53,196 nt of DNA. Origin: a virus. Positions 1,790 through 53,046 of this stretch are shown here, piece after piece; the stretch's first letter is position 1; every line of letters begins with the position of its first letter. A program made the translations under genes and the position numbers. The stretch is from the IMG/VR virus record IMGVR_UViG_3300036985_003763, positions 1-53,196 of that record; one strand, given 5' to 3'. The notes under the pieces were generated by a model. The model made no database searches. It saw only the letters and a list, made by a program, of their open reading frames with translations, and was not told where the DNA came from.

Positions 1790-3835
1790 ATGAAAAGTAA
1801 ACAAGAGGCCGCAGGCCTCATTTCCGCCCCCGCTATCTTTACAGACAAGCTCGCCAGCTCAGGTCTGACACTAGAAGACGCCGAAGCACTTGGTATGAAG
1901 TTCTTAGACGATTGCTCTAAGATAGACCCACAGTTTTTAAAAGTGCGCGGTATCCTAATCCCATACTTTGGCATTGATGGTAAGCAGACAGACTTCTACC
2001 GCATACGTTACCTAGACAAGCCTAGTGGGTTTGCAGGTCAAGTTGCAAAGCCCCAACGTTACGCACAAGCTGCAGGTACATTGAACGAGGCTTACCTCGC
2101 CCCCTTAGCGCCTTGGGAGTCCATTGCGCTGCGCCCGGACATTGACATCTTAATTACAGAAGGCGAGCTTAAAGGCGCCAAAGGTACGAAGTGCGGAGTG
2201 CCATGTATTGCGCTCGGCGGTGTGAACACCTGGTCAAGCTCGAAACGTAACATCGACTTGCTTGAGCCGTTGCCTCAAATCAATTGGAAAGGCCGTACGG
2301 TTACTATTGTGTTTGATAGTGACGCGGCGAGTAATCCTAACGTTGCCTTAGCGCAGGTGTCCTTGGCAAAAAAGCTCCTCGCACTTGGCGCTTTGCCCCG
2401 TATCGCGTCCCTACCTACTACAAGTTCAGGTGAAAAACAGGGTTTAGACGACTATTTGGTCGCTGGCGGCGAGATTGAGGAAATCTTAAAAGACACTAGG
2501 GGCTTGGCGCTAGGTGAGAGGCTCTCAGAGCTGAATTCACGTTTTGCCTATGTCATAGATCAAGACCTCATCGTTGAACGCGTTAACGGGCGCCGTATAA
2601 GACGCGAATCTTTCTGCAACGGTCACTTTGCCAATAATAACATCACAGAGTACCTAACTTCAGGAAATGGTAACGTTAAGAAGGTAGAAGTAAAGGTTCC
2701 GATGGAATGGCTCCGTTGGACTGCCCGAACAGACGTTAAGACCATGACATTCAAACCCGGCAAACCGTCTATTGAGGATGGTGAGTACAACACTTGGGCA
2801 GGCTGGGCAGTCGAGCCTAAAAAGGGCAACATCAAACCATGGGCTGAGTTGCTAAGTCATATCTTCGGCGACGAGATAATGGCGCGGGACTGGTTCGAGC
2901 AATGGATTGCCTACCCTATGCAGAACCCTGGTGCGAAGATGTTCACCAGCGTAGTGATATGGGGTCCGGAACAAGGTACAGGTAAGTCGTTACTAGGTTA
3001 CACGATTGGCTCTATCTATGGCGACAACTTCACCGAGATTGGTAACGCTGAGTTGCACAGCACCTTTAACGAGTGGGCTATCAACAGGCAGTTCGTGATG
3101 GGCGATGAGATTACGGGCAGTGACCGCCGTACGGAGGCCGATAAAATTAAGGCGATGATTACGCAGAAGTTGCTACGCATCAACATGAAGAACCTGCCCA
3201 CCTACACGGTGCCTGACTGCATCAACTACTACTTTACGTCGAACCATCCTGCTGCGTTCTTCTTGGATGACCAAGACCGTCGCTTCATGATACATCGCAC
3301 TGCGCAGAAGAAAGCGGAGTCCGTTGAGTTCTACGACAACTACATTAGATGGAAGGACAATGGCGGCACAGAGGCGCTGTTCGACTACTTCCTGAACCTA
3401 GACTTGTCATCGTTCAACCCTACAGCTAGAGCACCAACAACAGCAAGTAAATTAGAGTTGATTGACCACGGTCGCTCAGACTTGAACCAATGGGTGTACT
3501 TCTTTATGGAGAATTTAGACCTAGAATTGCCACGTTTGGCGGAGTACTTGGGTGTGCCTGAAACAGACCTTGACCTTGTGCTCAACAAGCACTTGAAGTG
3601 GTTATATGACCCTAACGACAATAAGCGTGTGACATCTAATGGCATTGGTCGTGAGATGAGCCGTTGCGGTGCCAAGACACTGCCACAGACACGGACAGAT
3701 ACGTTCGGCAAACAACGCTTCTACGTACTTCGTAACGAGGAGAAGTGGTTGAACGCTAAGCCTGACACAGTGCGCGAACACGTAGATAAAGTATTCGCGG
3801 TTTCCGAGGCAATGGCTAAGGTTTCTAAGTTCTAA
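1790..3835 (+). CDS. primase-helicase, TOPRIM (DUF3854-like) plus D5/DUF5906-like ATPase
   Basis: A 681-aa fusion of a primase-type TOPRIM domain and a superfamily 3-like helicase, likely the replicative primase-helicase. The N-terminal third has ILITEGELKGAK (around 118-129) and VFDSDAAS (around 174-181), the acidic metal-binding signatures of TOPRIM domains, then a GLDDYL segment. The C-terminal half has Walker A GPEQGTGKS (392-400), Walker B FVMGDE (435-440), a sensor-1-like FTSNHP and an arginine-finger-like DQDRRF. This order matches the DUF3854 plus DUF5906 proteins of phages and plasmids. AAGGCG precedes the ATG. Its stop overlaps by 4 nt the stop of the convergent late gene at 3832, with no terminator between them. 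Confidence 0.92.
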   Translation: MKSKQEAAGLISAPAIFTDKLASSGLTLEDAEALGMKFLDDCSKIDPQFLKVRGILIPYFGIDGKQTDFYRIRYLDKPSGFAGQVAKPQRYAQAAGTLNEAYLAPLAPWESIALRPDIDILITEGELKGAKGTKCGVPCIALGGVNTWSSSKRNIDLLEPLPQINWKGRTVTIVFDSDAASNPNVALAQVSLAKKLLALGALPRIASLPTTSSGEKQGLDDYLVAGGEIEEILKDTRGLALGERLSELNSRFAYVIDQDLIVERVNGRRIRRESFCNGHFANNNITEYLTSGNGNVKKVEVKVPMEWLRWTARTDVKTMTFKPGKPSIEDGEYNTWAGWAVEPKKGNIKPWAELLSHIFGDEIMARDWFEQWIAYPMQNPGAKMFTSVVIWGPEQGTGKSLLGYTIGSIYGDNFTEIGNAELHSTFNEWAINRQFVMGDEITGSDRRTEADKIKAMITQKLLRINMKNLPTYTVPDCINYYFTSNHPAAFFLDDQDRRFMIHRTAQKKAESVEFYDNYIRWKDNGGTEALFDYFLNLDLSSFNPTARAPTTASKLELIDHGRSDLNQWVYFFMENLDLELPRLAEYLGVPETDLDLVLNKHLKWLYDPNDNKRVTSNGIGREMSRCGAKTLPQTRTDTFGKQRFYVLRNEEKWLNAKPDTVREHVDKVFAVSEAMAKVSKF

Positions 3836-4341
3836 AACTTGTTAACGATGGGGTCACGGACTGAAGCTAGTCCGCCTTGATAGTACATTTCTAGTATGTC
3901 GGCTTCGTCTTCTACAGGCAACACGTCTGTAGGGGCGGTACCAAAGTCATTCTCTTTGGCATACTTAGCGGCAAGGTCTATCAATTCTTGCTGTGTGTAT
4001 TTCTTACCCTTAGCGGCCTTGATACCAGCCAAGTCTTGTTGCATGTTGTCCCGCGCATTCTTAGAAAGACCGTGGTTTAGCAATTGGTAGATAATTGCCA
4101 AAGCGCTGTCCGTAGTTTCGCCGAACGGAGAACGTTGTGCCCAGTCCATAGCACCAGCATACTCAGCAGCAGTGTCACGTGGTGAACCCACAGCGCGAGC
4201 ACGACCTAGTTCGGGGTACTTAGCACTTAGTTCTAAGGGCATCGCCTCGTTGTACCAGGTCTTGTGCTTATCAAACTCTTTAGCCGCTTTTTTAGGTTTG
4301 GCTACGACTTCGGTAACTTTCTTAATTATCTCTAGTGCCAT
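3832..4341 (-). CDS. hypothetical protein, last gene of the late arm
   Basis: A 169-aa soluble protein of unknown function with no Cys clusters or membrane segments. The N-terminal 30 residues are Lys-rich (KKVTEVVAKPKKAAKEFDKH); the rest is predicted helical. Its ATG overlaps the stop of the preceding virion protein in a TAATG arrangement, which implies translational coupling and membership of the late operon, so a minor virion or ejection role is plausible. Residues around 35-48 (LELSAKYPELGRAR) are encoded by a short stretch with 7-nt G..C phasing, described separately. Confidence 0.8.
   Translation of the reverse strand: MALEIIKKVTEVVAKPKKAAKEFDKHKTWYNEAMPLELSAKYPELGRARAVGSPRDTAAEYAGAMDWAQRSPFGETTDSALAIIYQLLNHGLSKNARDNMQQDLAGIKAAKGKKYTQQELIDLAAKYAKENDFGTAPTDVLPVEDEADILEMYYQGGLASVRDPIVNKF
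4199..4243. repeat. short heptad-phased G-N-N-C run inside the 169-aa gene
   Basis: From 4209, five consecutive 7-nt units fit GNNC+NNN on the + strand (GTTCGGG at 4209, GTACTTA at 4216, GCACTTA at 4223, GTTCTAA at 4230, GGGCATC at 4237). They are preceded by GCACGAC at 4199 and a 3-nt interruption. The words match those of the long arrays at 43.6-45.7 kb. The run is short and coding, so coincidence is possible. Confidence 0.4.
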
Positions 4342-6316: not shown

Positions 6317-8335
6317 TTACTTTTGTTCATTAACAATTGAGAATTGGCTTTGCACAGCCTTGTTTACAGGTGCTTTCTTAGCAAACCCTTTACTACGTGG
6401 AGTAGGCTTAACTTGCGCATCTATTTGAGACCTGAAATTTTCAGGAACTGGTTTACCAGCCTGTTTGTAACTTTTTTCAAGTGCTGAGTAAGTAATCTCT
6501 TTTAGCTCATCTAAAGCAGTTTGGAATTCAGCTTCGCTAGTCCAGTTGTTAAGACGGTTAATTGCATTAGTAGCTTTTATACCTTCAACTTCTGTAATTT
6601 GACCACCACCTCTAAGTGACTCAAAGGCTTGTAAGAAGGATTTATCTTTTGTTTGTGAAAGTTTAGTCATAAAACCACCCGCTTCAGTAAACGGAAGTTT
6701 TTGCATTAGGAACATAGCAGATTTACCAACGGCTTGGGCTTTACCAGGATGTTGATCTATTTCTAAAATTGTTTTTAAAGTATCCTTAGCAGCAGACTCT
6801 GCTTTAGGTAAGTTAGCAACTGCCTCTCCCTCAGCTTTACCGATAGCAGTGGCTTTCTCTTTAACAGCCGCTTCTTGAGCTGGCGTAATAAATGGTCTTG
6901 CGCTTGGTTTTGCGGTAGTTGTTAAAGACGGTGCAACTGATGGGGCTGTCGCTGTCTGAACTGTAGCAGATGGTGCCGCTGCTGGTGTACTTGGTGCACC
7001 TGCGGCGTTCAACTCAACAAAATTAGGACCCGCTAACTTACGAACACGGTCAATGTAATTTTTGGTTTCTGTAGGTAATTTATCAAGGTTTGCACCCTCT
7101 TTAACCCATTTATCAACATTGCCTGGACCCCAATTATAGGCAGCCAAAGCGTAGACATCGTTACCGTATTTAGCACGAAGACCTGACAAGTATTTCTCAC
7201 CCCCAGCCGCGTTCTCTACTGGGTTAGTTGGGTCAACACCTAAATCTTTAGCGGTGCCTGGCATTAATTGCATGGAGCCTTGTGCACCTTTAGGGCTGAC
7301 AGCTTTAGTATTGCCACCGCTTTCAGCTTGTTGAACTGCTGCTGACACGCCAGCACCCGGTACGACGTTCGGAGCACTTGGTGCTTGGTTCATAGGGCTA
7401 GGTGGTGGGATAATGCCCGGAGCACTTGGTTCGGAGCGCGGAGCACCTGGCACTAAGTTCGACGCACCTGCACCCATACCTATATAACGTTGTTGAAGAG
7501 CATCAAGTTTTGCTTGACGATCTGCTTCCCATTGCGCGGCGCCATTAGGACCGTACGCTGCACGTGTAGAGGCATTATCAAACTCATCTTCAACTTGTTT
7601 TTTCTCTTGGATGTACTGTGGGTTAGTGGCAAGCGCAACAATACGTGGGTCACCTGAAGCAATTGTTTTTCCTGAAGCACTACCATATAAGTAGTTCATT
7701 ACTTCTCTAGCTTTAACTTCATACTCTGGCGTACCTGGTTGTAGATTTGGGTACAAATCACGCATAGTTTTACCAAAAGTACTCTTACTATCTGAACCCA
7801 TCCCTTTAATTTGCTCTTGCATGAGCAATTTTTGGATGTCGCGTTTTTGGGTCAAGCTCTCGTTGTAAGCTTCATCTGCAGCCGCATAGCCCATCTCCAT
7901 CGCTTTTAGACGGTAAGCTTGTTTTAATTGTTCTTGTTTAGAAACAACTGGCGCAACTAGCCCAGCAGCATTCGCTACACTAGCAGCAATAGATGATTGA
8001 CCGCCGCCGCGAGGAACACGACCTAATAAACCTTGGCCAATGGCTAGGAATTTTTCAGCGTCGCTAGGTTGGAACTCGTTGTAAAATTTTTGAAGTTTTT
8101 CGCGTTCTTTTTTACGTTCATCAGCCAGTTGCTTGAGGCTACCGATGTCATCTTCCTCACCAGTTAGACGCGCAATCTCATTCTCTAAAATGCTTTTAGT
8201 TTGGCTAGTAGAAGGCTTGACCGGAGGTAGGCCACCTTGAGGTGCCTGTTGCATAGGTTGCTGTTGCCCGGATTGACCGCGACCTAGGCTTTCAATTCCT
8301 GCAGCATTCAAAATATCTAATGGGGATTGTGCCAT
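6317..8335 (-). CDS. internal virion protein with SLT lytic transglycosylase domain
   Basis: A 672-aa protein with a soluble lytic transglycosylase (GH23-like) domain at about 328-440: AVQQAESGGN with the probable catalytic Glu338, GSMQLMPGTA, NPVENAAGGEKYL and ALAAYNWGPGNV. In podoviruses such domains in ejected virion proteins cut peptidoglycan locally during genome entry. The N-terminal part is Gln-rich and helical. A Pro/Ser/Ala linker (about 292-328) joins it to the enzyme, followed by a second linker of Pro/Ala/Thr and a helical C terminus. The first linker is encoded by a 7-nt-phased repeat array (7353-7470). It lies between two other large virion genes. Confidence 0.88.
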   Translation of the reverse strand: MAQSPLDILNAAGIESLGRGQSGQQQPMQQAPQGGLPPVKPSTSQTKSILENEIARLTGEEDDIGSLKQLADERKKEREKLQKFYNEFQPSDAEKFLAIGQGLLGRVPRGGGQSSIAASVANAAGLVAPVVSKQEQLKQAYRLKAMEMGYAAADEAYNESLTQKRDIQKLLMQEQIKGMGSDSKSTFGKTMRDLYPNLQPGTPEYEVKAREVMNYLYGSASGKTIASGDPRIVALATNPQYIQEKKQVEDEFDNASTRAAYGPNGAAQWEADRQAKLDALQQRYIGMGAGASNLVPGAPRSEPSAPGIIPPPSPMNQAPSAPNVVPGAGVSAAVQQAESGGNTKAVSPKGAQGSMQLMPGTAKDLGVDPTNPVENAAGGEKYLSGLRAKYGNDVYALAAYNWGPGNVDKWVKEGANLDKLPTETKNYIDRVRKLAGPNFVELNAAGAPSTPAAAPSATVQTATAPSVAPSLTTTAKPSARPFITPAQEAAVKEKATAIGKAEGEAVANLPKAESAAKDTLKTILEIDQHPGKAQAVGKSAMFLMQKLPFTEAGGFMTKLSQTKDKSFLQAFESLRGGGQITEVEGIKATNAINRLNNWTSEAEFQTALDELKEITYSALEKSYKQAGKPVPENFRSQIDAQVKPTPRSKGFAKKAPVNKAVQSQFSIVNEQK
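7353..7470. repeat. heptad array (G-N-N-C-N-N-N) coding for a protein linker
   Basis: About 16 units of 7 nt run through the coding sequence of the transglycosylase, for example GCACCCG at 7353, GTACGAC at 7360, GCACTTG at 7374, GTGCTTG at 7381, GGGCTAG at 7395, GCACTTG at 7422, GCGCGGA at 7436, GCACTAA at 7450 and GTTCGAC at 7457. There is one 6-nt unit (7416-7421), and two units (7402-7415) lack C at position 4. Because 21 nt is seven codons, the array gives a roughly seven-residue protein periodicity (VPGAP, EPSAP, QAPSAP). The words match those of the non-coding arrays near 44 kb. Confidence 0.7.
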
Positions 8336-17158: not shown

Positions 17159-17529
17159 ATTAAAATCCATCCTCCGGCAATAGCCTTAAATCTGAGGGCA
17201 GTCCATTGCTCGTAGACTATCACAGAAGTATCACCCACCAGAGTGTCCGTGCCTGTGGGTAGTATTATAATATAATTTCCGTTAAACAGCTTAATTACTT
17301 CAACCTCGTTGCCGTTTTTTGCGGGTGGCAGCGTGACTGTACAAATACCGTTGCACAGTATGTAGTCGTCGTCTTCTGTGACAATGTAAGTGCTGTTAGT
17401 TGGGTATACCTGTTTAGCAATAGCCTGCAAGCCATTGAGCGTATCGTGATTAGGGATACGGTCTGATGAATGGTAATGAAGCGGACAGTCCGCTCCATTT
17501 AACATTAAGGCTTCTTGTTGGGGTAACAT
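17155..17529 (-). CDS. small beta-rich virion-associated protein
   Basis: A 124-aa protein with alternating beta strands (DDYILCNGICTVTLP, VEVIKLFNGNYIIILP, ALRFKAIAGGWILI), resembling the small C-terminal sandwich domains of tail-fibre and decoration proteins. Its first codon overlaps the lysozyme stop by one base (TAATG) and its stop overlaps the next ATG. A fibre-tip or decoration role is possible but unproven. Confidence 0.72.
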   Translation of the reverse strand: MLPQQEALMLNGADCPLHYHSSDRIPNHDTLNGLQAIAKQVYPTNSTYIVTEDDDYILCNGICTVTLPPAKNGNEVEVIKLFNGNYIIILPTGTDTLVGDTSVIVYEQWTALRFKAIAGGWILI

Positions 17530-18026
17530 TAAGTTTCTTTTCTAAATAAAGCCGCTTCGTCTTTACGGCGATTGTCTAGCCCTTTTAGGACTTTACCACC
17601 CGCTTTATTATACTTGAGAAGGCTCGTAATAGCACCCTCTTTATCCCCGCGCAAAAGCGCCTGACGGAGGGTTGACCGCTGAAATGTACCAAGACCAAGA
17701 TTAAAGCAGAAGCTAAGAATAGCATCGTATTCATTCTGTGAAAGTCGTATAGGTAGGAAACGTTCAAGCCCTCTTTCAAATCGGGCGACATCCTTAGCCA
17801 GTAATTTGTCAACTTCTTCCTCACTCCATTTACGGTTGTCTTCAGGTTTTAGTGGCCAAGCTTTACGCCTAGCCATGCCTTCTATGCTTGAGGGTATCTT
17901 TGCTTGCTCTGGGTACATCACGCTACCCACACCAATTGTCCAAAGCCTTGCGGGGCATTGGTACGGTTTGTATCGGCAACCTTCATGATGATGCAACATT
18001 TTAAATAATTCTTTACTTGCTTTCAT
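17529..18026 (-). CDS. endolysin, GH24 phage lysozyme with Glu-Cys-Thr triad
   Basis: A 165-aa T4/P1-type lysozyme that hydrolyses the MurNAc-GlcNAc bond of peptidoglycan at lysis. The catalytic signature Glu-8aa-Cys-5aa-Thr is seen at E15, C24 and T30 (HHEGCRYKPYQC then TIGVGS); the usual Asp is replaced by Cys, a variant also known in P1 Lyz-like enzymes. The C-terminal half has FCFNLGLGTFQRSTLRQAL and GLDNRR, typical of the family. The ATG at 18026 has AGGTG about 9 nt upstream and overlaps the preceding endonuclease by 14 nt. An upstream in-frame GTG (18074) would add a short hydrophobic N terminus but lies deep in the endonuclease gene. No signal peptide is visible from the chosen start, so holin release is expected. 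Confidence 0.92.
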   Translation of the reverse strand: MKASKELFKMLHHHEGCRYKPYQCPARLWTIGVGSVMYPEQAKIPSSIEGMARRKAWPLKPEDNRKWSEEEVDKLLAKDVARFERGLERFLPIRLSQNEYDAILSFCFNLGLGTFQRSTLRQALLRGDKEGAITSLLKYNKAGGKVLKGLDNRRKDEAALFRKET

Positions 18027-18558
18027 TTTTTTTACACCTATCAAAATGCCATAAATGCATTGAGCCAGCGCCACCTTGTTTGTTGCAATGAGGACAAGTT
18101 ACTAGTGGTCGTTTTTTACCAACAGCATATAAGTGTGGTTTGCCTTTGGCTGCTATTGATAATTTTGCTTTATGCTCTTCACTAAAGGTTATATTTTTAC
18201 CGTACATTGGATTTTTATTTCCAAGTTTAGCTTTAGATATATTTTCGCAATATTCTTTACTTCTTATTTTACCTTTTGGACTAGGTGGTATTCCACCACC
18301 TTTAGCTATATTCCATCCAATATTTGCAGCAGGTCTTAACTCTTCTTCTATAAAACAAGCAAACTCTTTATCTATGTTTGATATAAGAATATCACATACA
18401 ATTAAGTCTTTATACTTTTTAAAGGCATTTTGTAAATGTTGATTTGTTTTACTGCGTTGCCAATGATGCTGCTCAAATCTAAGCGCAGGATTTTTTGAAA
18501 TACCAATATATCCAGTTTTTAAATCTTTATTTATGTTTATATGATAAACGCTATACAT
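18013..18558 (-). CDS. GIY-YIG homing endonuclease with NUMOD3 motif
   Basis: A 181-aa free-standing endonuclease. The GIY-YIG core is MYSVYHI then TGYIGIS (residues 1-20), followed by helical ALRFEQHHW and the catalytic-Glu region FIEEELRP (about 69-76). NUMOD3-like DNA-binding repeats follow (GNKNPMYGK, about 113-121), then a C-terminal CPHCNKQGG and HFDRCKK zinc-finger-like end. The gene is AT-rich compared with its neighbours and splits holin from lysozyme, overlapping the lysozyme start by 14 nt and beginning on the last base of the holin gene. It is probably a selfish insertion in the lysis cluster. Confidence 0.92.
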   Translation of the reverse strand: MYSVYHININKDLKTGYIGISKNPALRFEQHHWQRSKTNQHLQNAFKKYKDLIVCDILISNIDKEFACFIEEELRPAANIGWNIAKGGGIPPSPKGKIRSKEYCENISKAKLGNKNPMYGKNITFSEEHKAKLSIAAKGKPHLYAVGKKRPLVTCPHCNKQGGAGSMHLWHFDRCKKNESK

Positions 18559-19055
18559 TACTTGCCTTCACGATGTTTTTCCCATTGACGTGAACCAAAG
18601 TAGAAGCCAATAATTGAGCTTACAATCGCCATTTCGTCATCAGAAAACACTAAATTCATTGCCGTAGTAAACTCTACACCAGTATAAATAGCCCAAGCAA
18701 GGCCAGCAACATCAACTAGGACTAGCAAGCCAACAAAGGTAAAGGCAATGTATGGACGAACTTTAGCGTTCAAGTCTACAACACCTTGAGAAGCTTTGTC
18801 CATCATCTTCATGTCGTGAGAGTACAACGCCTCACGTTCTTGTGCGTAAGTTTGCACTTCAATTTCGTCTAGCTTGATAGCTTCAATCTTCTCTTGTGAT
18901 GCAAAGCCCGCAGCAGCCATAGCTGCTTCACGTTCTGTTTGCAAACGAGCCATAGCCATTTCATGCTTTTGGTCGCCTTTTTGTTGGAAGAAGCTTAATA
19001 GACTTGGTAGGGCTGATGAGCCGATACCTAATAAACCTGATATGATAGATAACAT
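18558..19055 (-). CDS. holin, 3-TM gene-transfer-release type
   Basis: A 165-aa membrane protein with an N-terminal amphipathic or hydrophobic segment (1-23), a charged coiled-coil middle (27-95) and hydrophobic helices at about 104-131 and 142-155, ending IIGFYFGSRQWEKHREGK. This layout and ending match the 3-TM holin family (PF11351-like) that permeabilises the inner membrane for endolysin release. It lies next to the lysozyme, separated only by the inserted GIY-YIG gene, and is followed upstream in the same operon by a coiled-coil membrane protein. Confidence 0.85.
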   Translation of the reverse strand: MLSIISGLLGIGSSALPSLLSFFQQKGDQKHEMAMARLQTEREAAMAAAGFASQEKIEAIKLDEIEVQTYAQEREALYSHDMKMMDKASQGVVDLNAKVRPYIAFTFVGLLVLVDVAGLAWAIYTGVEFTTAMNLVFSDDEMAIVSSIIGFYFGSRQWEKHREGK

Positions 19056-19057
19056 AA

Positions 19058-19528
19058 TTAATTTCCTAATGGGTTCGATGTGGCACGTTTGAGTGCTTTA
19101 AGTTGAGATTCAATGCCCTCACGGGTAGCTTTCATTTCTTCACGCACACCCATTAAAGACGCTGCTGTTTCACGAACGTTACCGTTAGTGATGGCCTTAG
19201 CTTCATTGGCTGTACCGATAGCGCTAGACACTTTTTCTTGCATAGACACAAGCTGGTTTGATGTCGTCACCATGCTGTCTTTAACTGTGTTGACTGACTG
19301 TTGTTGTGCAGCCAATTGCACTTTTAGCGCGTTTACTTCAGCTTTTAGTTCAGCATCGTCATAAGGCTTGTTAGCCTCAATCATCTCAGTCGCCGCTATA
19401 ACTCGGTTGTAAGTCGTTATTCCTACGTAGGCTGTCCCACCTATCATTGGCAAGATTATTGAAAGCGTCAGAAATATTGCTTTCGGTGATAAGTTGGAGT
19501 AAGACTCCTTGATTTCCTCTAAGCTCAT
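19058..19528 (-). CDS. single-TM coiled-coil protein of the lysis cluster, spanin-like
   Basis: A 156-aa protein with one N-terminal membrane segment (about 14-37, IFLTLSIILPMIGG) followed by a long periplasmic-type coiled coil (about 45-150). This is the topology of an inner-membrane spanin (Rz) or a lysis accessory factor. An excellent ribosome site (AGGAG, 7 nt spacer) fixes the ATG at 19528, even though this places 143 nt of the gene inside the 3' end of the upstream 543-aa gene. It is 2 nt from the holin. No lipoprotein partner is evident, so spanin function is inferred. Confidence 0.75.
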   Translation of the reverse strand: MSLEEIKESYSNLSPKAIFLTLSIILPMIGGTAYVGITTYNRVIAATEMIEANKPYDDAELKAEVNALKVQLAAQQQSVNTVKDSMVTTSNQLVSMQEKVSSAIGTANEAKAITNGNVRETAASLMGVREEMKATREGIESQLKALKRATSNPLGN

Positions 19529-21017
19529 ATGGTAACTCCTGTTGGTATGCCAGTGCGTCGTTCAACTGAATCTGCTGCGTTTGCATCGGCTTGTTTAAAA
19601 TTTCTAGGCTCATCACTACCCCGAACCCCGGTACAATCTCTTTGCCCTTCGGCACTTGTGGCTGCGATGTAGTCTGTGTAGTCCCGCTCGACGACGTTAC
19701 TGGTACTGGTGTACTTGGTGTCGTTGTTGCCGTTGTTGCCGTTGATGACGATGTACTTGTGCTTCCTGACGAGGCCGCTGGTGCTGCTTGCGTCGTGGTC
19801 TCTGCAGTGGGTGCAGGGGAAGCTGGTATGGGCGGAGCTTCTGCTGGCGCTTCCACAGGCGGTGGTTCCGCTGGTGGTTCTGGCGCAGGTGCAGGTGGCA
19901 TTGCTTCCGGGGTCACAGTCGCACTTAGCGGGCTCGCAGGATTGACTGGGCTGCTCATGTTCGTTGGATTGGTTGCGCTCTTTACGCAACTGTCCTGTGC
20001 TGTAACCCAATCGCCCCATACAGGCTCGCTGTAAGGTGTCGAGCAACTTGATACCCTGTTTTCCGTTACTGAACCAACGAAGCCATCTTGACATGCTACC
20101 GACCTAACTTGCGTAGATACTGCGCACGTTGCAGGATCTGGTGTACACGTATTTGTTGTAACTACGTAACCACTCCATGACTGACTGCCGTAAGGATCGG
20201 AACACGTTGCTGTATTTGTCTCTACTATGCTGCCACTGAAGTTTTGTGGGCAAGATGACCCCCTTGATATCGATGTTGCAGTACATGTAGGCGGGTCTTG
20301 CGTACATGAATTGGTCACCGTTACCCATGAACCTGCTACAGGCGAGCCATACGGGTCGGGACAAGCGTTGACCTTGCTCTGCTGTATTGCTCCTGAGTGG
20401 TTGGCTGGGCATGCTAAGGTTTGGTTTTCAACAGTTGCTTGACACGTTGGAGGAGCTGCTTGGCATGACCTAGCAATTTCAAACCAACCGGAGTCGACTG
20501 GGCTTCCGTAGGCGTCTGGGCAGTTTTGTTCCCTTTTGTACGTGACCGAGCCGATTTGGTTATTCCCACAGGTTTGCCTTTCTTCGGTGACGACGCTGTA
20601 GGAACAGGTGGGCGGATTGTCTGTACAATTGTTTGAAGTAGTGACCCAATCTGTGTAAGACTGGCTTTGACACTGATATGTGCGGCTTTGATTGATTGCA
20701 CCGCTTTGGTTAGGGCCACAGCTAAGGGATTGGACTTCAACAGTGTTAGAGCAAGGTGGAGGCTCTGGCGTAGCAGGTTGACCGCACTCTGGAATGCCTG
20801 GGTAATACTGACACGCAATTTGCTGACAAGCAGCAAGAGTTGTGCCTTGACCAACGTATAGACTGCTGTAAACAGGGCCATAAGACGACCACTGACTTGC
20901 GTAACAATTTGCATAAACATAATTACTCCCCAATAGTAGATAGCTAAAGTTTATTGCTTTTAACAAGGTTTTCTTTTGCCGGAATAACTTGAAGATTCCA
21001 AGGCACATGGAGTCCAT
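19386..21017 (-). CDS. exported Cys-rich repeat protein with Pro/Thr linker
   Basis: A 543-aa protein with a signal-peptide-like N terminus (basic KLFRQKK, hydrophobic FSYLLLG, probable cleavage after YVYA at 36). Five tandem repeats of about 50 residues follow (about 85-345), each starting PPTC or similar with four Cys and a W...T.N.C end, resembling thrombospondin-type disulphide repeats. Then come a Pro/Glu/Ala linker, a Ser/Thr linker and a 90-aa C-terminal domain. The ATG at 21017 has AAGGA 10 nt upstream but overlaps the HNH gene by 74 nt; a TTG at 20966 would still keep a signal peptide. The end overlaps the next gene by 143 nt. Function unknown; an envelope or surface-exposed role is likely. 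Confidence 0.72.
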   Translation of the reverse strand: MDSMCLGIFKLFRQKKTLLKAINFSYLLLGSNYVYANCYASQWSSYGPVYSSLYVGQGTTLAACQQIACQYYPGIPECGQPATPEPPPCSNTVEVQSLSCGPNQSGAINQSRTYQCQSQSYTDWVTTSNNCTDNPPTCSYSVVTEERQTCGNNQIGSVTYKREQNCPDAYGSPVDSGWFEIARSCQAAPPTCQATVENQTLACPANHSGAIQQSKVNACPDPYGSPVAGSWVTVTNSCTQDPPTCTATSISRGSSCPQNFSGSIVETNTATCSDPYGSQSWSGYVVTTNTCTPDPATCAVSTQVRSVACQDGFVGSVTENRVSSCSTPYSEPVWGDWVTAQDSCVKSATNPTNMSSPVNPASPLSATVTPEAMPPAPAPEPPAEPPPVEAPAEAPPIPASPAPTAETTTQAAPAASSGSTSTSSSTATTATTTPSTPVPVTSSSGTTQTTSQPQVPKGKEIVPGFGVVMSLEILNKPMQTQQIQLNDALAYQQELPYELRGNQGVLLQLITESNISDAFNNLANDRWDSLRRNNDLQPSYSGD

Positions 21018-21498
21018 TTACTGTTTTTCCTTTTAACGGAATGATGTGGTCAACATGGTACTTTTCACCTGTATATATAGCAAACATTTCAGCGCATATA
21101 TAAAACTCGCTTATTCTATTTAATTCCTCTTTAGATAGCCAAGAAGGCGTTGCTTTTAACAAATCACCTCTTCTTTTTGCAGTCCAAGCATATACTTTAC
21201 ATTTATTTAAAGATTTCCATTCTCTGAAGTACTTATTAATTTTTTGTTTATTTTTAATAACCCAGTTTTTTTTATTTTCATTGGCTTGTTCTTTATTTTC
21301 TGCAACCCAATTTTTTGCTTTTATTTTGTATAATTCTTTATTATCTTTATAGTGTTGTTTTTTATTTTCTTTAGAATTTTTGCAAATGCGTTCTTTATTA
21401 TTTTCATAATATAGTTTAGCTTTAGCAAGAATTTTTTGTTTATTTTTTTGATAGTACCTTGCTTCTTTGCTGATTATTTTTTGTTCATTATTATTCAT
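20944..21498 (-). CDS. HNH homing endonuclease
   Basis: A 184-aa, strongly AT-rich, Lys/Asn-rich protein. The N-terminal half is made of repeated YY..NK..I..K-like helical units, as in other phage HNH proteins. The C terminus has the HNH core: YHVDHIIPLKG (about 147-157), then VNGLHVPWNLQVIPAKENLVKSN. It starts 8 nt inside the 3' end of the upstream exported protein gene and ends 74 nt inside the presumed start of the Cys-rich protein gene, the pattern of a tightly inserted free-standing homing gene. Confidence 0.92.
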   Translation of the reverse strand: MNNNEQKIISKEARYYQKNKQKILAKAKLYYENNKERICKNSKENKKQHYKDNKELYKIKAKNWVAENKEQANENKKNWVIKNKQKINKYFREWKSLNKCKVYAWTAKRRGDLLKATPSWLSKEELNRISEFYICAEMFAIYTGEKYHVDHIIPLKGKTVNGLHVPWNLQVIPAKENLVKSNKL

Positions 21499-21967
21499 CT
21501 GTTTTTATAGGCGTTATTAAAACAAAATCTTTTCCATAAATCTCCATAAACCATTCAGGGTGTAAGTCATACCAAGCTTTCCTTGCAGCATCACCAATTG
21601 CGCCACCTATAGGACAGGGGCTACCGCTCATTTCCATTGCCACCCAGTTTTCGTGAGTAGCTGCGCAAGCTAATGACACAGCCGCAACTTTTAGTCCACT
21701 GTCACTTAGAAACTTCGCCCAACGTAAGCGGACGCAATTATTGTCCGTAATCATTGTGCCGCCAGCTACAGAAAATACACCCCCGTTAACAGCGCCGCTG
21801 ACACCAATGCCGCAAACATCTTGAGAGAAAGCTGACATTGAAGGAGCCATAGCACTGGCGACAGGTTGACCTTTATAATTAATTGTTGTTTGATCCGCGT
21901 AGCATAAATCATATGCTAGTAGCCCCCCAATTAGTAACCCTACTATGAAAAGTATTGTGCGTTTCAT
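21491..21967 (-). CDS. exported hypothetical protein
   Basis: A 158-aa protein with a clear signal peptide (MKRTILFIVGLLIGGLLAYDLCYA, cleavage near residue 24). Mature-region segments GVFSVAGGTM, DNNCVRLRWAKFLSDSGLKVAAVSLAC and GSPCPIGGAIGDAARKAW recall a phage family near tail and lysis genes whose function I do not know. Several Cys suggest disulphides in the periplasm or virion. It overlaps its neighbours by 4 nt (start side) and 8 nt (HNH side). Confidence 0.78.
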   Translation of the reverse strand: MKRTILFIVGLLIGGLLAYDLCYADQTTINYKGQPVASAMAPSMSAFSQDVCGIGVSGAVNGGVFSVAGGTMITDNNCVRLRWAKFLSDSGLKVAAVSLACAATHENWVAMEMSGSPCPIGGAIGDAARKAWYDLHPEWFMEIYGKDFVLITPIKTDE

Positions 21968-41335: not shown

Positions 41336-41740
41336 TTAGTTAGTTGCTTCTGGAGCCGCTTTTGCAAGCAGCGTTTGCAATGTTTCTAGTTCTGTGTCCG
41401 ACAAATTGGCTAACGACGACGCGTCTATCTTAATAGCACCACCGTCTTTACCCGATACTTCTAAATTAGTTGGTATGGCTCGCATTGAGTAGGTCATCAA
41501 TGTTTTGGCTGCTGAAATACGCTCGTTAGGGCTGCAGAATGGGTTCACCATCAGTCGACGGAGAATGTCCATCGGGTGCTGCGGCAACTCAGCCACGTAT
41601 TGCGCTTGTATTTTCAAGGCTTCTGGAGACAACGGGTCCACGCCCTTACGTCCGATACCTTCTATGTATGCCAGAAAGTTAGCGGTGTCCGTAGAGTCGG
41701 AAGTGTCTATCGGTAACGTCTCTTTAGAATTGTTTGCCAT
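41336..41740 (-). CDS. putative terminase small subunit
   Basis: A 134-aa mostly helical protein. The segment HPMDILRRLMVNPFCSPNER, then ISAAKTLMTYSMRAIP and GKDGGAIKIDASSLANLSD, resembles a family found just upstream of large terminase in SU10-like and aquatic podoviruses. It would recognise phage DNA for packaging. ATG 41740 is preferred to an upstream in-frame TTG (41776), which coincides with a perfect TTGACA. No ribosome site is obvious. Confidence 0.72.
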   Translation of the reverse strand: MANNSKETLPIDTSDSTDTANFLAYIEGIGRKGVDPLSPEALKIQAQYVAELPQHPMDILRRLMVNPFCSPNERISAAKTLMTYSMRAIPTNLEVSGKDGGAIKIDASSLANLSDTELETLQTLLAKAAPEATN

Positions 41741-41747
41741 GGTTGGG

Positions 41748-41776
41748 TTTTTATCATTATTAAACAGACCTGTCAA
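41748..41776 (-). promoter_or_regulatory. possible promoter at the small terminase start
   Basis: The minus strand has a perfect -35 TTGACA (41771-41776), a 17-nt spacer and a weak -10 TAAAAA (41748-41753). Transcription would begin close to 41741, making the ATG at 41740 nearly leaderless; a later start site is also possible. Confidence 0.35.
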
Positions 41777-43619: not shown

Positions 43620-43759
43620 GTGCGACGTGCCTGGTACTCGGTGCAAGGTGCTGAGTACTTGGTACCTGGTGCTACGTGCTGAGTACTTGGTGCTAGGTAC
43701 TTAGTACTCCGAACCAAGCACTAGGCACCCTGAACCAAGCACCCCGTACTCCGCGCTTC
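43620..43759. repeat. heptad array 1: 20 consecutive G-N-R-C-N-N-N units
   Basis: Every seven bases from 43620 to 43759 begin with G, have a purine at position 3 and C at position 4, with variable positions 5-7: GTGCGAC at 43620, GTGCTGA at 43648 and 43676, GTACTTG at 43655 and 43683, GTGCTAG at 43690, GCACTAG at 43718, GCACCCC at 43739, GCGCTTC at 43753. The 16-nt GTGCTGAGTACTTGGT repeats at 43648 and 43676. It lies in the 568-nt space after the 88-aa gene, where I see no gene. Confidence 0.92.
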
Positions 43760-43897
43760 GTCTCGCCTAGTTAACTTTAAACGTTTAAATTAGCTTCTTT
43801 AATTCTTTGTATTTTTCTGTAGCTACTCGGCACCCCTTAGCCCCTGCATGTCAGAACCGGTTTGGGGGTGCATGGGGTCGCAAAATCAAGAAGCCAA

Positions 43898-44027
43898 GCA
43901 CGACGAAACGGCGTCGCATAGCCCTTTGCGCCTAGCGCCACGCACCTAGCACGGCGTGACGTCGCACCTTAGCGCCTTGCACCTAGCGCCACGGGCTTAG
44001 CACCATGCACCTAGCACGCCGCGCCAG
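43898..44027. repeat. heptad array 2
   Basis: Units of pattern G-N-R-C-N-N-N, mostly GCAC and GCGC: GCGCCTA at 43928, GCGCCAC at 43935 and 43986, GCACCTA at 43942, 43979 and 44007, GCACGGC at 43949, GGGCTTA at 43993, GCACGCC at 44014, GCGCCAG at 44021. About fourteen units are in two phase blocks separated by a 2-nt slip near 43963. It ends 28 nt before the ArdC promoter. A GC-rich stretch with an AACCGGTT core (43855-43862) lies between arrays 1 and 2. Confidence 0.88.
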
Positions 44028-44054
44028 TGTATATATATACATTGCAAATAGTGT

Positions 44055-44108
44055 TTGACATCATTATATATACCTGCGAAAATTCTGTTATCGCGCTGTA
44101 TCGCGCTG
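44055..44108 (+). promoter_or_regulatory. ArdC promoter with tandem 10-bp repeat at the start site
   Basis: Perfect -35 TTGACA (44055-44060), 17-nt spacer, -10 GAAAAT with TGC before it (44075-44083). TATCGCGCTG then occurs twice back to back (44089-44098 and 44099-44108), exactly where transcription should begin, like a tandem operator. The ArdC ribosome site AAGG follows. Confidence 0.65.
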
Positions 44109-44129
44109 ACTATTTGAAAGGTATACATT

Positions 44130-44981
44130 ATGACGCAAGCTATCTATCAACAAGTGACTGACACTATTATCGCTCAGCTTGAGCAAGGCGCGGAAGCATG
44201 GGCTAAATGCTGGGCGGCTAACAGCCAAGCGCCTAGCAATCTAGTAAGCGGCAAGGCATACGGCGGCATTAATAACTTAGTGCTAACACTTGCCGCCAAT
44301 GCGCGTGGCTTCACTAGCAATCAATGGGCGACTTATCAGCAACACGCCGCCGCCGGCTATCAAGTGCAGAAGGGCGAAAAAGCCACCACAATCATTTTTT
44401 ATAAGCCCGTCGCCGGTAAAGTGGACGCGGATACTGGCGACGTCACTAGCGGCTATGCCGTGCTAAAGTCATACAGCGTATTTAACTTAGCTCAAACCGA
44501 CGCGCCGGCGCAACCAGCCGCGCCGCTCGATACTTTCGAAGCCATTGCAGAATGCGAAGCGCGTATCGTGGCGACGGGCGCTGATATTAGACACGGCGGC
44601 GACCGTGCATTTTATCGCCCTGCCGATGATAGTATTACCTTGCCACCTCGCGCCAGCTTCACCACGCCAGCCCATTATTATGCCACTGCCTTTCATGAGC
44701 TAAGCCACTGGACTGGCGCGAAGCATAGACTAGCCCGTGACTTATCCGGACGGTTCGGCAATGAAGCCTACGCCGCCGAGGAACTTATCGCCGAACTAAG
44801 CGCGGCATTTCTTTGCGCGTCGCACGGCGTGACTGGTGACTTGCGCCACGCTGGTTATATTGAAAGCTGGTTGCGCGTGTTGCGCGATGATAACAAGGCT
44901 ATATTTAAAGCGGCGGCATTGGCGCAAAAAGCGGCGGACTATGTGCAAGGCGTCACGCACGCCGAAGCTGTAGCGGCTTAA
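44130..44981 (+). CDS. ardC: ArdC-family antirestriction protein
   Basis: A 283-aa protein with the two-domain ArdC layout. The N-terminal ssDNA-binding domain covers about 1-125 (VTDTIIAQLEQGAEAW, YGGINNLVLTLAA, QVQKGEKATTIIFYKP, VFNLAQTD). The C-terminal zincin-like metalloprotease domain has HELSH (189-193) and EELIAELSAAFL (217-228, Glu as third ligand). Plasmid ArdC protects incoming ssDNA and blunts restriction, so this is probably an early entry-protection gene. It is GC-richer, with more GCC/GGC/GCG codons than the late arm, flanked by heptad arrays, and closed by its own terminator. It looks horizontally acquired. Confidence 0.93.
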   Translation: MTQAIYQQVTDTIIAQLEQGAEAWAKCWAANSQAPSNLVSGKAYGGINNLVLTLAANARGFTSNQWATYQQHAAAGYQVQKGEKATTIIFYKPVAGKVDADTGDVTSGYAVLKSYSVFNLAQTDAPAQPAAPLDTFEAIAECEARIVATGADIRHGGDRAFYRPADDSITLPPRASFTTPAHYYATAFHELSHWTGAKHRLARDLSGRFGNEAYAAEELIAELSAAFLCASHGVTGDLRHAGYIESWLRVLRDDNKAIFKAAALAQKAADYVQGVTHAEAVAA

Positions 44982-45001
44982 ACACTGCCGGCAATACCCA
45001 T

Positions 45002-45031
45002 GCCCTTAGTGCGACGTGCTAGGGGCTTTTT
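45002..45031 (+). terminator. intrinsic terminator after ardC, made from repeat words
   Basis: Stem GCCCTTAG/CTAGGGGC (45002-45009 with 45019-45026, one G-U), a 9-nt loop and five T (45027-45031). The loop and right arm are heptad units (GTGCGAC at 45009, GTGCTAG at 45016). Confidence 0.85.
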
Positions 45032-45050
45032 AATGGGCGCTCAATGCATC

Positions 45051-45163
45051 GCGCTAGGTGCTAGGATACTAAGCGCCACGCACTAGGCACAATGCACTAA
45101 GCGCCACGCACTTGGCACGTCGCACTAAGGGCTAAGCACTTGACACTTTGCGCCACGCAATAC
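45051..45163. repeat. heptad array 3
   Basis: Sixteen units in near-perfect phase: GCGCTAG at 45051, GTGCTAG at 45058, an 8-nt unit at 45065, GCGCCAC at 45073, 45101 and 45150, GCACTAG at 45080, GCACTTG at 45108 and 45136, GCACTAA at 45094 and 45122, GGGCTAA at 45129. All but the last few fit G-N-R-C-N-N-N. It occupies the beginning of the 730-nt non-coding space after ardC. Confidence 0.9.
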
Positions 45164-45180
45164 CAAGCCGCTTTTTGGAA

Positions 45181-45590
45181 TGTGTGACAGTGTGCCGGCA
45201 GGCTGGCATTGCTTCCTAGTCACTCTGTCACACAATAACTTAATAAATTAAAATTTTATAGTAATACCTAGGGTTTTAGGTATTGGCTAATATCACTATT
45301 TAACCTTGTAGAATTGGACGCAAAATTGCAGTTATTTTGTGACGGCTTGCAACCCATTGATTTATATAAAATAAATCTAAGAACTTAATTTTTTAAATCT
45401 GTGATTGTGTGACAGAAAAAGTTGTAAGCTATTGATTATAAACACATTGTAATTTTAAGCTAAAAAGTGCCTAAAAAGTAAGCAAAGTATTATGTTAAAT
45501 TGGCAACAACAATCTTTTACAAAATGGCAATAAGAACAAGTAAAATAAGCATTTACAAAAACAAGCATTTATTTTGCATTTAGGTATTGA
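45181..45590. other. AT-rich, iteron-bearing non-coding region (candidate replication origin)
   Basis: No gene of useful length. TGTGTGACAG occurs at 45181 and 45406 and inverted (CTGTCACACA) at 45225; the first and inverted copies close a hairpin that encloses GCCGGC. A perfect 8-bp dyad AATACCTA-GGGTTT-TAGGTATT lies at 45263-45284, and TTTAGGTATTG recurs at 45275 and 45579. About 350 nt of strongly AT-rich sequence follows the first iterons. Direct and inverted repeats beside an AT-rich block are typical of replication origins, but no initiator binding can be shown. Confidence 0.4.
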
Positions 45591-45615
45591 CAACGTGCGA
45601 AGTGCGGCGTATCGT
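45587..45615 (+). promoter_or_regulatory. putative promoter for the small-gene operon
   Basis: TTGACA (45587-45592), 17-nt spacer, weak -10 TATCGT (45610-45615). The spacer and leader are heptad units. It would transcribe the cluster beginning at 45714. Confidence 0.45.
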
Positions 45616-45672
45616 GGTGCTTAGTGCGAAGTGCAGGGCACCAAGCACCAAGCACCAAGCACCAAGTGCAAC
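45595..45672. repeat. heptad array 4 with four tandem GCACCAA
   Basis: GTGCGAA at 45595 and 45624, GTGCGGC at 45602, an 8-nt unit at 45609, GTGCTTA at 45617, GTGCAGG at 45631, then GCACCAA four times without change (45638-45665), then GTGCAAC at 45666. The identical tandem part is the least diverged stretch of any array, suggesting recent expansion. It lies in the 5' leader of the 66-aa gene. Confidence 0.92.
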
Positions 45673-45713: not shown

Positions 45714-45914
45714 ATGGCAACATTAGCTTATAACACTTTAACAATGGGCGACATCACCAAGCTGGATATCCGGCAGGGCGATTTTACCGAGGGCGACGGT
45801 TCATATACCGAGCTGGTTATCTCTGACAAGCACGGCAACCGGTTCAGCATCACGCTTTATTCTGACGCCGAGCCGCTGGGCTTAAATATAACACGCTCAC
45901 CCAACAGAATTTAA
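45714..45914 (+). CDS. hypothetical protein, 66 aa
   Basis: A small protein beginning MATLAYNTLTMGDITKLDIR, mostly beta (YTELVISDKHGNRFSITLYS). AGGAG lies 8 nt before the ATG at 45714, which is preferred over a longer in-frame start at 45624 that would translate the heptad array. First gene of the small-protein operon; function unknown. Confidence 0.75.
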   Translation: MATLAYNTLTMGDITKLDIRQGDFTEGDGSYTELVISDKHGNRFSITLYSDAEPLGLNITRSPNRI

Positions 45915-46879: not shown

Positions 46880-47494
46880 ATGCAAACCATTCAATTCATG
46901 CCTAAGCTTAGCGCGACCGGCAAAATGCCGTGCGCCAGCTTCAGTATACCGGCGCAAGCGTGTAAGACCGGCGGCAAGCTGGTTAAAATTAAGGGTTCAG
47001 TGTGCTCTGACTGTTACGCGCTCAAGGGTTCGTATCGTTACCCTACTGTTATGGCGCACCGAAGCCACAATCTTAATTCAATGGCGAACTTGGACGACTG
47101 GACGGCTAATATGATTAAGCTAATCCACAGCACCAACGAAACGGGATACTTTCGCTGGTTTGATAGTGGCGACGTGCAAAGTGCGAAGCACTTGGAAGCC
47201 ATTATTGATATCGCCGAAGCCCTGCCGGACGTGCGCTTTTGGTTACCGACCAAGGAAGCCGGCATAATTAAGCGCAACAAGCGTGACGTGCCGGACAACC
47301 TAGCCATAAGACTATCAATGCCAATGATTGACCAGCCGCCAACGGGCGCGTGGAAGCTGACCAGCACAGTGCGAAGTGCTAAGGGCGACGTGCAGGGTGC
47401 GCAGTGCAAAGCACCAAGCAACAACGGCAAGTGCGGGACGTGCCGCGACTGCTGGGATACAAGCATAGCTAACATAACTTACATTAAACACTAA
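46880..47494 (+). CDS. Gp88-like protein with Cys clusters
   Basis: A 204-aa protein of the family named after mycobacteriophage gene product 88. Signature Cys are C18 and C28 (KMPCASFSIPAQACKTG), C42/C45 in GSVCSDCYALKGSY, and a C-terminal set in NGKCGTCRDCW (about 184-194). The Cys clusters suggest a metal or iron-sulphur centre; the function is not established. ATG 46880 is only 2 nt after the previous stop. The coding sequence contains heptad runs at 47174-47194 and 47369-47424; the latter encodes SAKGDVQGAQCKAPS just before the C-terminal Cys cluster. Whether this disturbs a conserved loop is an open question. Confidence 0.85.
   Translation: MQTIQFMPKLSATGKMPCASFSIPAQACKTGGKLVKIKGSVCSDCYALKGSYRYPTVMAHRSHNLNSMANLDDWTANMIKLIHSTNETGYFRWFDSGDVQSAKHLEAIIDIAEALPDVRFWLPTKEAGIIKRNKRDVPDNLAIRLSMPMIDQPPTGAWKLTSTVRSAKGDVQGAQCKAPSNNGKCGTCRDCWDTSIANITYIKH
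47369..47424. repeat. heptad run of eight units inside the Gp88-like gene
   Basis: GTGCGAA at 47369, GTGCTAA at 47376, GGGCGAC at 47383, GTGCAGG at 47390, GTGCGCA at 47397, GTGCAAA at 47404, GCACCAA at 47411 and GCAACAA at 47418, all in phase and open in the gene's reading frame. Seven of eight fit GNRC+NNN. The words match arrays 1-4. Confidence 0.8.
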
Positions 47495-50122: not shown

Positions 50123-50250
50123 TAATAGAGTATATACAATGTTACTGGCAGAGTTTTGCGCTGGGTATGTTGGCTATGTTTACAGCACTAAAGATAAAGG
50201 AAAGGAAAGCTAATGAAGTTACACCCAATGCACGTCGTAGAGATAAATAA
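50113..50250 (+). CDS. small single-TM protein, 45 aa
   Basis: Starts MRLIIEYIQCYWQSFALGML, continuing AMFTALKIKERKA: one hydrophobic helix then a basic tail. It overlaps both neighbours (10 and 38 nt). No ribosome site is obvious. Plausible member of the membrane micro-protein group. Confidence 0.45.
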   Translation: MRLIIEYIQCYWQSFALGMLAMFTALKIKERKANEVTPNARRRDK

Positions 50251-50629
50251 CAACCGTGATGCAGTCTACAAGTATGTAAGAGATAGGAAAGACACAACAG
50301 CGTCGCAGTGCATGGCAGACCTACAAATAGGCGAGAAGTTGAAAGTTTATTTAGAATGGCTGGCATTACGCGGACACCTTACAAGGGTAAAGCGAACGAT
50401 AGATGGTAGAAGGCAGTATATCTACAATGCTGGGCTGATACCGTATGTAAAAGATACCGTTACCATACCCACGCAAGACGATGTAAAGGCAGCAGACCTG
50501 CTAAGTAGCGTGACAAAAGTGTATAGGCTACTGGACAGACCCGCGCCCGAAGGTGCTAAGCGTGAGAAAAAGGCAAGTGGCTACGCCGGCAATATGCAAA
50601 GTAGTATGCAAACTTTTAACAGTTGGTAA
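50213..50629 (+). CDS. winged-helix-like DNA-binding protein
   Basis: A 138-aa protein. Residues about 14-72 (NRDAVYKYVRDRKDTTASQC, LKVYLEWLALRGHLTRVK and GRRQYIYNAG) look like a winged-helix domain: helix, recognition helix, then a beta wing with RTIDGRRQYIY. Residues about 73-138 are a charged tail. AAGGAAAG lies just upstream of the ATG. A transcriptional regulator of the early operons, or of the palindromes at 42972-43030, is a reasonable guess but unproven. Confidence 0.68.
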   Translation: MKLHPMHVVEINNNRDAVYKYVRDRKDTTASQCMADLQIGEKLKVYLEWLALRGHLTRVKRTIDGRRQYIYNAGLIPYVKDTVTIPTQDDVKAADLLSSVTKVYRLLDRPAPEGAKREKKASGYAGNMQSSMQTFNSW

Positions 50630-52368: not shown

Positions 52369-52390
52369 TGTTAACTTTCGGAGAATATGA
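52334..52390 (+). pseudogene. truncated copy of the MTKDEALKMAI module
   Basis: Reads MTKDEALKMAIDVNFRRI then stops; its first 35 nt are identical to those of the gene at 53051. It looks like the broken end of a third copy, cut off where the pentapeptide-repeat gene begins. ACACATG and AGGAG precede it, so an 18-aa peptide may still be made and may couple translation to the pentapeptide gene. Confidence 0.65.
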
Positions 52391-53046
52391 TGGAAATTAA
52401 ACATAGATATACAGGTGAGGTTTTGCGCACGATTGATGCAGACACCTTGGATGGTGCTAACTTGATGGATGCTAACTTGCGTGGTGCTTACTTGCGTGGT
52501 GCTGACTTGCGTGGTGCTAACTTGAGTGGTGCTAACTTGATGGGTGCTAACTTGATGGGTGCTGACTTGCGTGGTGCTGACTTGATGGGTGCTAACTTAA
52601 GTGGTGCTTACTTGCGTGGTGCTGACTTGATGGATGCTAACTTGCGTAGTGCTGACTTGCGTAGTGCTAACTTGATGGATGCTGACTTGCGTAGTGCTGA
52701 CTTGCGTAGTGCTGACTTGCGTAGTGCTGACTTGAGTGGTGCTGACTTGCGTAGTGCTTACTTGCGTGGTGCTAACTTGAGTGGTGCTAACTTGAGTGGT
52801 GCTAACTTGATGGGTGCTAACTTGAGTGGTGAAATTTTAAAGAAAACACCTATCGTAATCTCAAACTTAACATGGGATGCGTTAATCACTATGGAATACT
52901 TAACTATTGGATGCCAACGCCACACGCATGAAGTATGGGAAGCGTTCACTGATGATGAAATATCTAAAATGCAAAGTAGAGCCAGTGAATTTTGGAAAGC
53001 TAATCGAGAGTGGTTATTAAGTGCTTGTAAATCACATAGGAGTTAA
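52387..53046 (+). CDS. pentapeptide-repeat protein with conserved C-terminal domain
   Basis: A 219-aa protein. About 26 pentapeptides A(N/D/Y)L(x)(G/S/D) occupy residues 21-150, forming a right-handed quadrilateral beta helix; several such proteins mimic DNA and bind gyrase, but the target here is unknown. The DNA is a near-identical 15-bp tandem repeat, so copy number is likely unstable. The C-terminal 65 residues (DALITMEYLTIGCQRHTHEV, WEAFTDDEISKM, FWKANREWLLSACK) recur in phage pentapeptide proteins. GGAG precedes ATG 52387. Confidence 0.93.
   Translation: MMEIKHRYTGEVLRTIDADTLDGANLMDANLRGAYLRGADLRGANLSGANLMGANLMGADLRGADLMGANLSGAYLRGADLMDANLRSADLRSANLMDADLRSADLRSADLRSADLSGADLRSAYLRGANLSGANLSGANLMGANLSGEILKKTPIVISNLTWDALITMEYLTIGCQRHTHEVWEAFTDDEISKMQSRASEFWKANREWLLSACKSHRS

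Follow-up and report, generated by a model that had tools for sequence, protein, structure and literature searches.

A control region of an uncultured virus carries four arrays of degenerate seven-base units, which together form a lattice of near-palindromes, RGYRCYN, at period 7. We read these arrays, with a probability of about 0.45, as a putative protein-binding lattice in an origin and early-promoter control region, whose unit sequence would turn over between lineages by slippage. It is unusual here that the core is fixed yet the units stay degenerate over 20 repeats, that several arrays share one control region, and that kin phages carry arrays with other cores.

Arrays and unit rule in the control region

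The window, meaning the whole analysed stretch, comprises 53,196 bases and is the record of an uncultured virus. Its late genes (terminase, portal and capsid) run leftward and its early genes rightward, and the arrays sit at the direction switch. The order is array 1, a conserved core, array 2, a promoter, ardC, a hairpin, array 3, an AT-rich segment of 390 bp, a second promoter, array 4 and the early genes, including a GP88-family gene. The features are as follows.

43620..43759, unstranded: array 1, 20 consecutive G-N-R-C-NNN units
43764..43850, unstranded: 87-bp core separating array 1 from array 2, AT-rich to mixed in composition; 91% identity to the sibling phage, versus ~84% for the flank with ardC
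43898..44027, unstranded: array 2, a 4-unit run (43928-43955) and an 8-unit run (43972-44027), with register slips
44055..44083, + strand: putative ardC promoter of sigma-70 type, TTGACA-17-GAAAAT, present at the corresponding position in the sibling
44130..44981, + strand: ardC, with ArdcN (PF08401) and MPTase-PolyVal (PF18818) domains and syntenic homologues in relatives
45002..45026, + strand: terminator-like hairpin 3' of ardC, with two units (GTGCGAC GTGCTAG), conserved in the sibling
45051..45163, unstranded: array 3, with 10 in-register units at 45073-45142
45201..45590, unstranded: AT-rich segment between arrays 3 and 4, GC ~26-32%, with a repeated TTGTGTGACAG-like motif
45587..45615, + strand: second putative sigma-70 promoter, TTGACA-17-TATCGT, which overlaps array 4 at its start; the sibling counterpart is TTGACA-17-TATTGT
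45595..45672, unstranded: array 4, 8 units (45617-45672), including 4 identical GCACCAA copies
46880..47494, + strand: GP88-family gene (PF17338), conserved in related array-bearing phages
47369..47417, unstranded: weak run of GYRC units within the GP88 coding sequence, with no insertion relative to relatives

The initial annotation had proposed four arrays of G-N-R-C-NNN units, and these were confirmed where it had placed them, with exactly 20 units in array 1. Five runs of at least five units were present in the window versus 0.01 in dinucleotide shuffles, and the four-unit pattern GYRCNNNGYRCNNNGYRCNNNGYRC had 24 matches versus 0 in 100 shuffles. The 7-nt periodicity was present in the autocorrelation, with lag-7 identities of 0.45-0.65 in all four array intervals and values of approximately 0.13-0.38 at other lags, lag 14 excepted. 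Array 1 consists of GTRC-type units in its first part and GNAC-type units in its second, and the opening 30 nt of array 2 fit the unit rule poorly.

Unit composition was scored over 50 in-register units from the four arrays. G at position 1, R at position 3 and C at position 4 were found in 50/50 units, as first described, but the real rule is tighter: position 2 was Y in 46/50, position 5 was Y in 41/50, and position 6 was A/T in 40/50. Read off the sequence with the preceding purine, the unit is RGYRCYN, a six-base near-palindrome followed by one spacer base. The earlier view that the terminator-like hairpin is made partly of units also held, since two of them lie inside 45002-45026. Rfam and tRNA scans returned no matches.

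The pattern TTGACA(15-19)[TA]ANNNT has six + strand sites in the window, of which two are located at arrays 2 and 4 and are both kept in the sibling. Array 2 ends 28 bp upstream of the -35 element of the putative ardC promoter, and array 4 is placed between the promoter at 45587..45615 and the start codon at 45714. Judged from its composition, the AT-rich segment at 45201..45590 is a possible unwinding region. The TTGTGTGACAG-like motif occurs in both orientations at 45181-45415 between arrays 3 and 4, and the sibling has the motif too. The cumulative GC-skew minimum is at 44825, coinciding with the gene-direction switch, which may itself cause it. The window has no perfect TTATCCACA DnaA box, and its 6 scattered TTWTNCACA sites are at chance level and form no cluster.

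Unit turnover and core constraint between siblings

A sibling contig, IMGVR_UViG_3300042292_000529 (loci L004/L013/L066/L133/L465), has approximately 84% nucleotide identity to the window in the array region and carries all arrays at the same places, array 1 being 140 bp in both phages. Whole units have been inserted or deleted between the two in arrays 1 and 3, and the sibling is without two of the GCACCAA units of array 4, which fits the earlier suggestion that this array expanded recently.

Substitutions were counted over 39 aligned units from arrays 1-3, with unit gaps allowed. At unit positions 1 to 7 the counts were 0, 5, 2, 0, 6, 10 and 10, and most substitutions preserved the R/Y pattern. 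For G1 and C4, 0/78 cells were substituted versus 33/195 at the other five positions (hypergeometric P 6.4e-6), a comparison confined to one phage pair because the GYRC form occurs in only two phages, and one in which array limits and units were chosen partly by the tested motif. The gain and loss of units together with the unchanged G1 and C4 indicate that slippage happens and that the core is also constrained.

Arrays with other cores in related phages

Such arrays are not confined to this phage: related phages carry heptamer arrays too. A motif-independent scan for period-7 information covered the contigs that encode the same GP88 protein. The threshold was exceeded by 21/78 GP88 contigs, among which independent lineages are few since several are close kin, compared with 2-7/78 for other periods; it was also exceeded by 2/24 ArdC loci and 0/12 other loci. 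The array-bearing relatives and the window have capsid, portal, terminase, SNF2-type helicase and GP88 in common, at approximately 25-63% identity. The GP88 family (PF17338) has 26 invariant positions, including Cys-rich ends, and its structural model is confident (pLDDT 89.5), yet it had no PDB match at E<=0.001.

Three groups illustrate how the core varies. The first comprises the window phage and its sibling, with core GYRC. The second (L467/L468/L477/L538) shows the same layout as the window, with terL, ardC (63%) and, further on, GP88 (63%), and carries GRCC/CRYG-core arrays in the terL-ardC gap; the period-7 z-score upstream of ardC was 14-16 in the window phage and its sibling and 8-12 in these four relatives. 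The third is Pelagibacter phage HTVC027P and its kin, with NNCAAGC arrays before and after GP88. In HTVC027P these arrays occur at no other place in the 57.6 kb and run straight into TTGACA sigma-70 promoters. For the second group, the full records of two uncultured phages, G312 and G315, show the two highest-scoring period-7 windows on either side of all perfect TTATCCACA DnaA boxes (6 in G312, 54 kb; 2 in G315, 61 kb). In each of four phages (the window phage, G312, G315 and HTVC027P), this control region holds the strongest period-7 windows of the whole genome; G312, G315 and HTVC027P have no GC-skew minimum at the arrays. Thus, the heptamer architecture is kept at one genomic place while the unit letters change between lineages. 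In the kin phage 023Pt_psg01 (L569), GAGC/CAAGC repeats of period 4/8 occupy 4100-4280, the site of the HTVC027P period-7 array.

Two side observations concern these and other viral contigs. Several genes at 17529-21967 of the window have 85-93% protein identity to genes of G315 (IMGVR_UViG_3300046005_000771), although the two phages are otherwise only approximately 25-65% alike; this reflects a recent exchange and hence probably shared hosts. Another viral contig, L101 (IMGVR_UViG_3300023283_000360), has four degenerate GYRC arrays.

In our preferred reading, the arrays would be degenerate near-palindromic seven-base sites (RGYRCYN) for a protein, serving early-gene control and probably control of a replication origin. 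Arrays 1 and 2 lie on either side of the conserved core that precedes ardC, arrays 3 and 4 on either side of the AT-rich segment after it, and arrays 2 and 4 abut the putative sigma-70 promoters. A small DNA-binding protein, encoded by phage or host, would touch each unit at its G and its C. Since a unit spans 7 bp (~240 degrees), every third one would lie on the same helix face. Cooperative binding would then wrap the region and set early transcription, replication initiation or both. We propose that affinity depends on unit number, so that slippage can add or remove units while G1 and C4 stay fixed.

This protein-binding reading is supported by the contrast between 0/78 and 33/195 substitutions, the control-region position shared with relatives of other cores, the DnaA boxes bracketed in G312 and G315, the promoters kept at arrays 2 and 4, and the skew minimum at 44825. 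It is weakened by the dependence of the constraint on one pairwise comparison, the lack of a DnaA cluster in the window, the confounded skew, the GYRC runs in coding sequence described below, and the period of 4/8 in 023Pt_psg01. A binding lattice had been among the roles first suggested; the fixed core, conserved position and promoters lend it support, but the putative binder was not found. A winged-helix-like ORF at 50213-50629 was set aside as a candidate, having a low-confidence model and weak PadR-like matches only. A broader version, in which an aquatic phage lineage (the window phage, G312/G315 and HTVC027P) keeps a seven-base-pitch lattice, rewrites its unit letters along with the putative binder, and weakly imprints the same core in the same phase on its coding sequence, strikes us as rather unlikely.

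If the arrays are such a lattice, they would be a cis-acting element whose recognition depends on its pitch and two bases, not on a constant sequence. Elements of this kind would escape ordinary motif searches and repeat finders, and a period-7 information scan would find others. HTVC027P on Candidatus Pelagibacter HTCC1062 would then offer a cultured handle, with a comparable array set abutting strong promoters.

Coding imprint, rival readings and known repeat systems

Beyond the arrays, the genome has 45 GYRC pairs spaced 7 apart versus 13 expected from other distances (P 4e-12), and 33 at distance 14 (P 3e-6). Among eight other cores tested for such pairs, seven were without excess and AYRT was at most marginal, at distance 14 (P 0.04). 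Three coding genes exceeded synonymous-codon shuffles (0/300, 0/300 and 4/300 shuffles), indicating a DNA-level effect. The run inside GP88 was dropped as independent evidence because 4.5% of synonymous shuffles reach it. Examples of the DNA-level effect come from the transglycosylase gene (6317-8335), where the sequence for a Pro/Ala-rich linker at ~7353-7470 is a degenerate run of GYRC heptamers that includes GTTC variants. The genome-wide imprint fits either weak widespread sites or mutational seeding of heptamers in permissive sequence. The mobile micro-repeat first suggested may also be the origin of the arrays, given that short phase-7 GYRC runs occur in coding sequence as well.

This imprint is the strongest point for a neutral explanation, in which heptamers arise and are homogenised by polymerase slippage, or by template switching at palindromic cores, wherever DNA is unconstrained, and survive in intergenic stretches and in disordered linkers. 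We regard it as the main rival, though as less probable than a binding lattice. According to Mrazek et al. (2007), as reported in PMC4679880, heptanucleotide repeats outnumber other classes in most prokaryotic genomes, and polymerase slippage has been proposed as their cause. Units are gained and lost between the siblings, and the core, even the period, differs between relatives. Other palindromic cores are also as common: GYRC had no enrichment over CRYG/GRYC in IMG/VR or in 300 Burkholderiales and was rejected as a special heptamer class, the simple arrays in IMG/VR numbering 99 for GYRC, 113 for CRYG and more than 120 for GRYC. However, neutral units would decay evenly, whereas G1 and C4 are unsubstituted while other positions change; the strongest arrays recur in the same control region; and arrays in other phages mostly consist of near-identical tandem copies, in contrast to those of the window. 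The slippage product of the initial annotation is accordingly borne out as to the turnover of whole units, but slippage alone leaves the fixed core unexplained. If the neutral reading is true, the arrays would be a clean case of heptamer slippage with an unexplained protection of two positions, and the polymerase origin that has been proposed for heptamer repeats in bacteria would become testable.

Simple heptamer arrays are frequent in both bacteria and phages. Bacterial GTRC arrays were mostly low-complexity repeats among the matches listed. Also among the matches listed, some bacterial genomes (L152, Acidobacteria MAG BP6.bin107; L160; L173; L139) hold more than 100 five-unit GYRC array matches with none for the reversed control, and in L205 (Chloroflexaceae) the control core was commoner than GYRC.

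An RNA-level element, with the transcribed arrays acting as long hairpins, sites for an RNA-binding protein or an attenuator, is improbable. Array 1 as a single strand forms a single long hairpin, folding of arrays 1 and 3 is much stronger than that of dinucleotide shuffles (z -5.8 and -6.3; array 1 of the sibling, -6.9), two units lie in the ardC terminator, and array 4 is in a leader. But array 2 has no such advantage over shuffles in the window phage or its sibling (z +1.1 and +0.8), and structures with permuted unit order, or with only the NNN parts permuted, are equally stable. A specific selected hairpin was rejected, as no specific pairing is kept by compensatory change (2 compensatory pairs versus 8-10 broken pairs). 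The suggestion that the arrays are a source of hairpins is physically true for arrays 1 and 3, but the hairpins appear emergent, a consequence of the unit being palindromic that requires no selection.

We give still less credence to a packaging (pac/cos) site, in which the arrays would be contacts for the ring of the terminase small subunit. The region is near terL in relatives, the terL start adjoins the arrays in G312/G315, and the window has a weak TerS-like ORF at 41336-41776; against this, several genes separate terL from the arrays in the window, arrays also lie after ardC and at promoters, and the DnaA boxes that relatives have between their arrays speak for an origin. A decoy role, in which a restriction or methylation enzyme of the host would read RGYRCY-like sites, is very improbable and lacks support, for although palindromic six-base sites cluster around the anti-restriction gene ardC, GYRC tetramers are not clearly avoided elsewhere in the genome (O/E 0.82-1.17, versus the avoided GATC, 0.43, and GGCC, 0.53) and ArdC phages in general are without period-7 arrays. 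A link to ardC alone was likewise rejected, one of the two hits among the 24 ArdC-bearing loci (L026) being AT-rich low complexity on examination. Taken together, the interpretation first offered is supported in part.

Compared with known systems, the protein-binding reading comes close to the iteron origins of plasmids and phages, including DnaA-box/iteron origins. Like these, the window has tandem direct repeats of short sites within one intergenic control region; it also has, nearby, an AT-rich segment with a possible unwinding role. The DnaA boxes beside the repeats are matched in G312/G315 but absent from the window, which differs further in its unit of only 7 bp, its contiguous 7-bp pitch, its fixation of just G and C and its several arrays. 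The NNCAAGC arrays of HTVC027P and kin are likewise degenerate heptamers in one early control region with GP88, 2/7 positions being variable, but they have another core, are fused with the -35 element, and include two downstream arrays inside a short ORF.

Bacterial heptanucleotide long simple sequence repeats resemble the window arrays in being seven-base direct repeats, mostly intergenic and in some cases upstream of start codons, and in the window, too, unit number changes between close relatives. They are near-identical copies, whereas the window arrays vary freely at three of seven positions and do not keep unit identity: arrays 1-3 vary at positions 5-7, and only array 4 has four identical copies. 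Examples are the TAACTGA repeats of Beggiatoaceae (PMC4679880) and the G4 heptamers of Xanthomonas/Nostoc (PMC4692102). A limited literature search found bacterial heptamer repeats and no description of degenerate phage heptamer arrays.

The window encodes a DUF5906/DUF3854 primase-like protein (1790-3835), which suggests replication of the general type of phage P4 alpha. For primase-type replication, the iterons and crr of the P4 alpha protein are the comparison system. A link between the arrays and this primase was rejected, since none of 11 phage records, array-bearing or related and several of them fragments, gave a match to it. Repeats of another kind are found at 52387-53046 of the window, where a pentapeptide-repeat protein gene contains approximately 25 DNA repeats of 15 bp.
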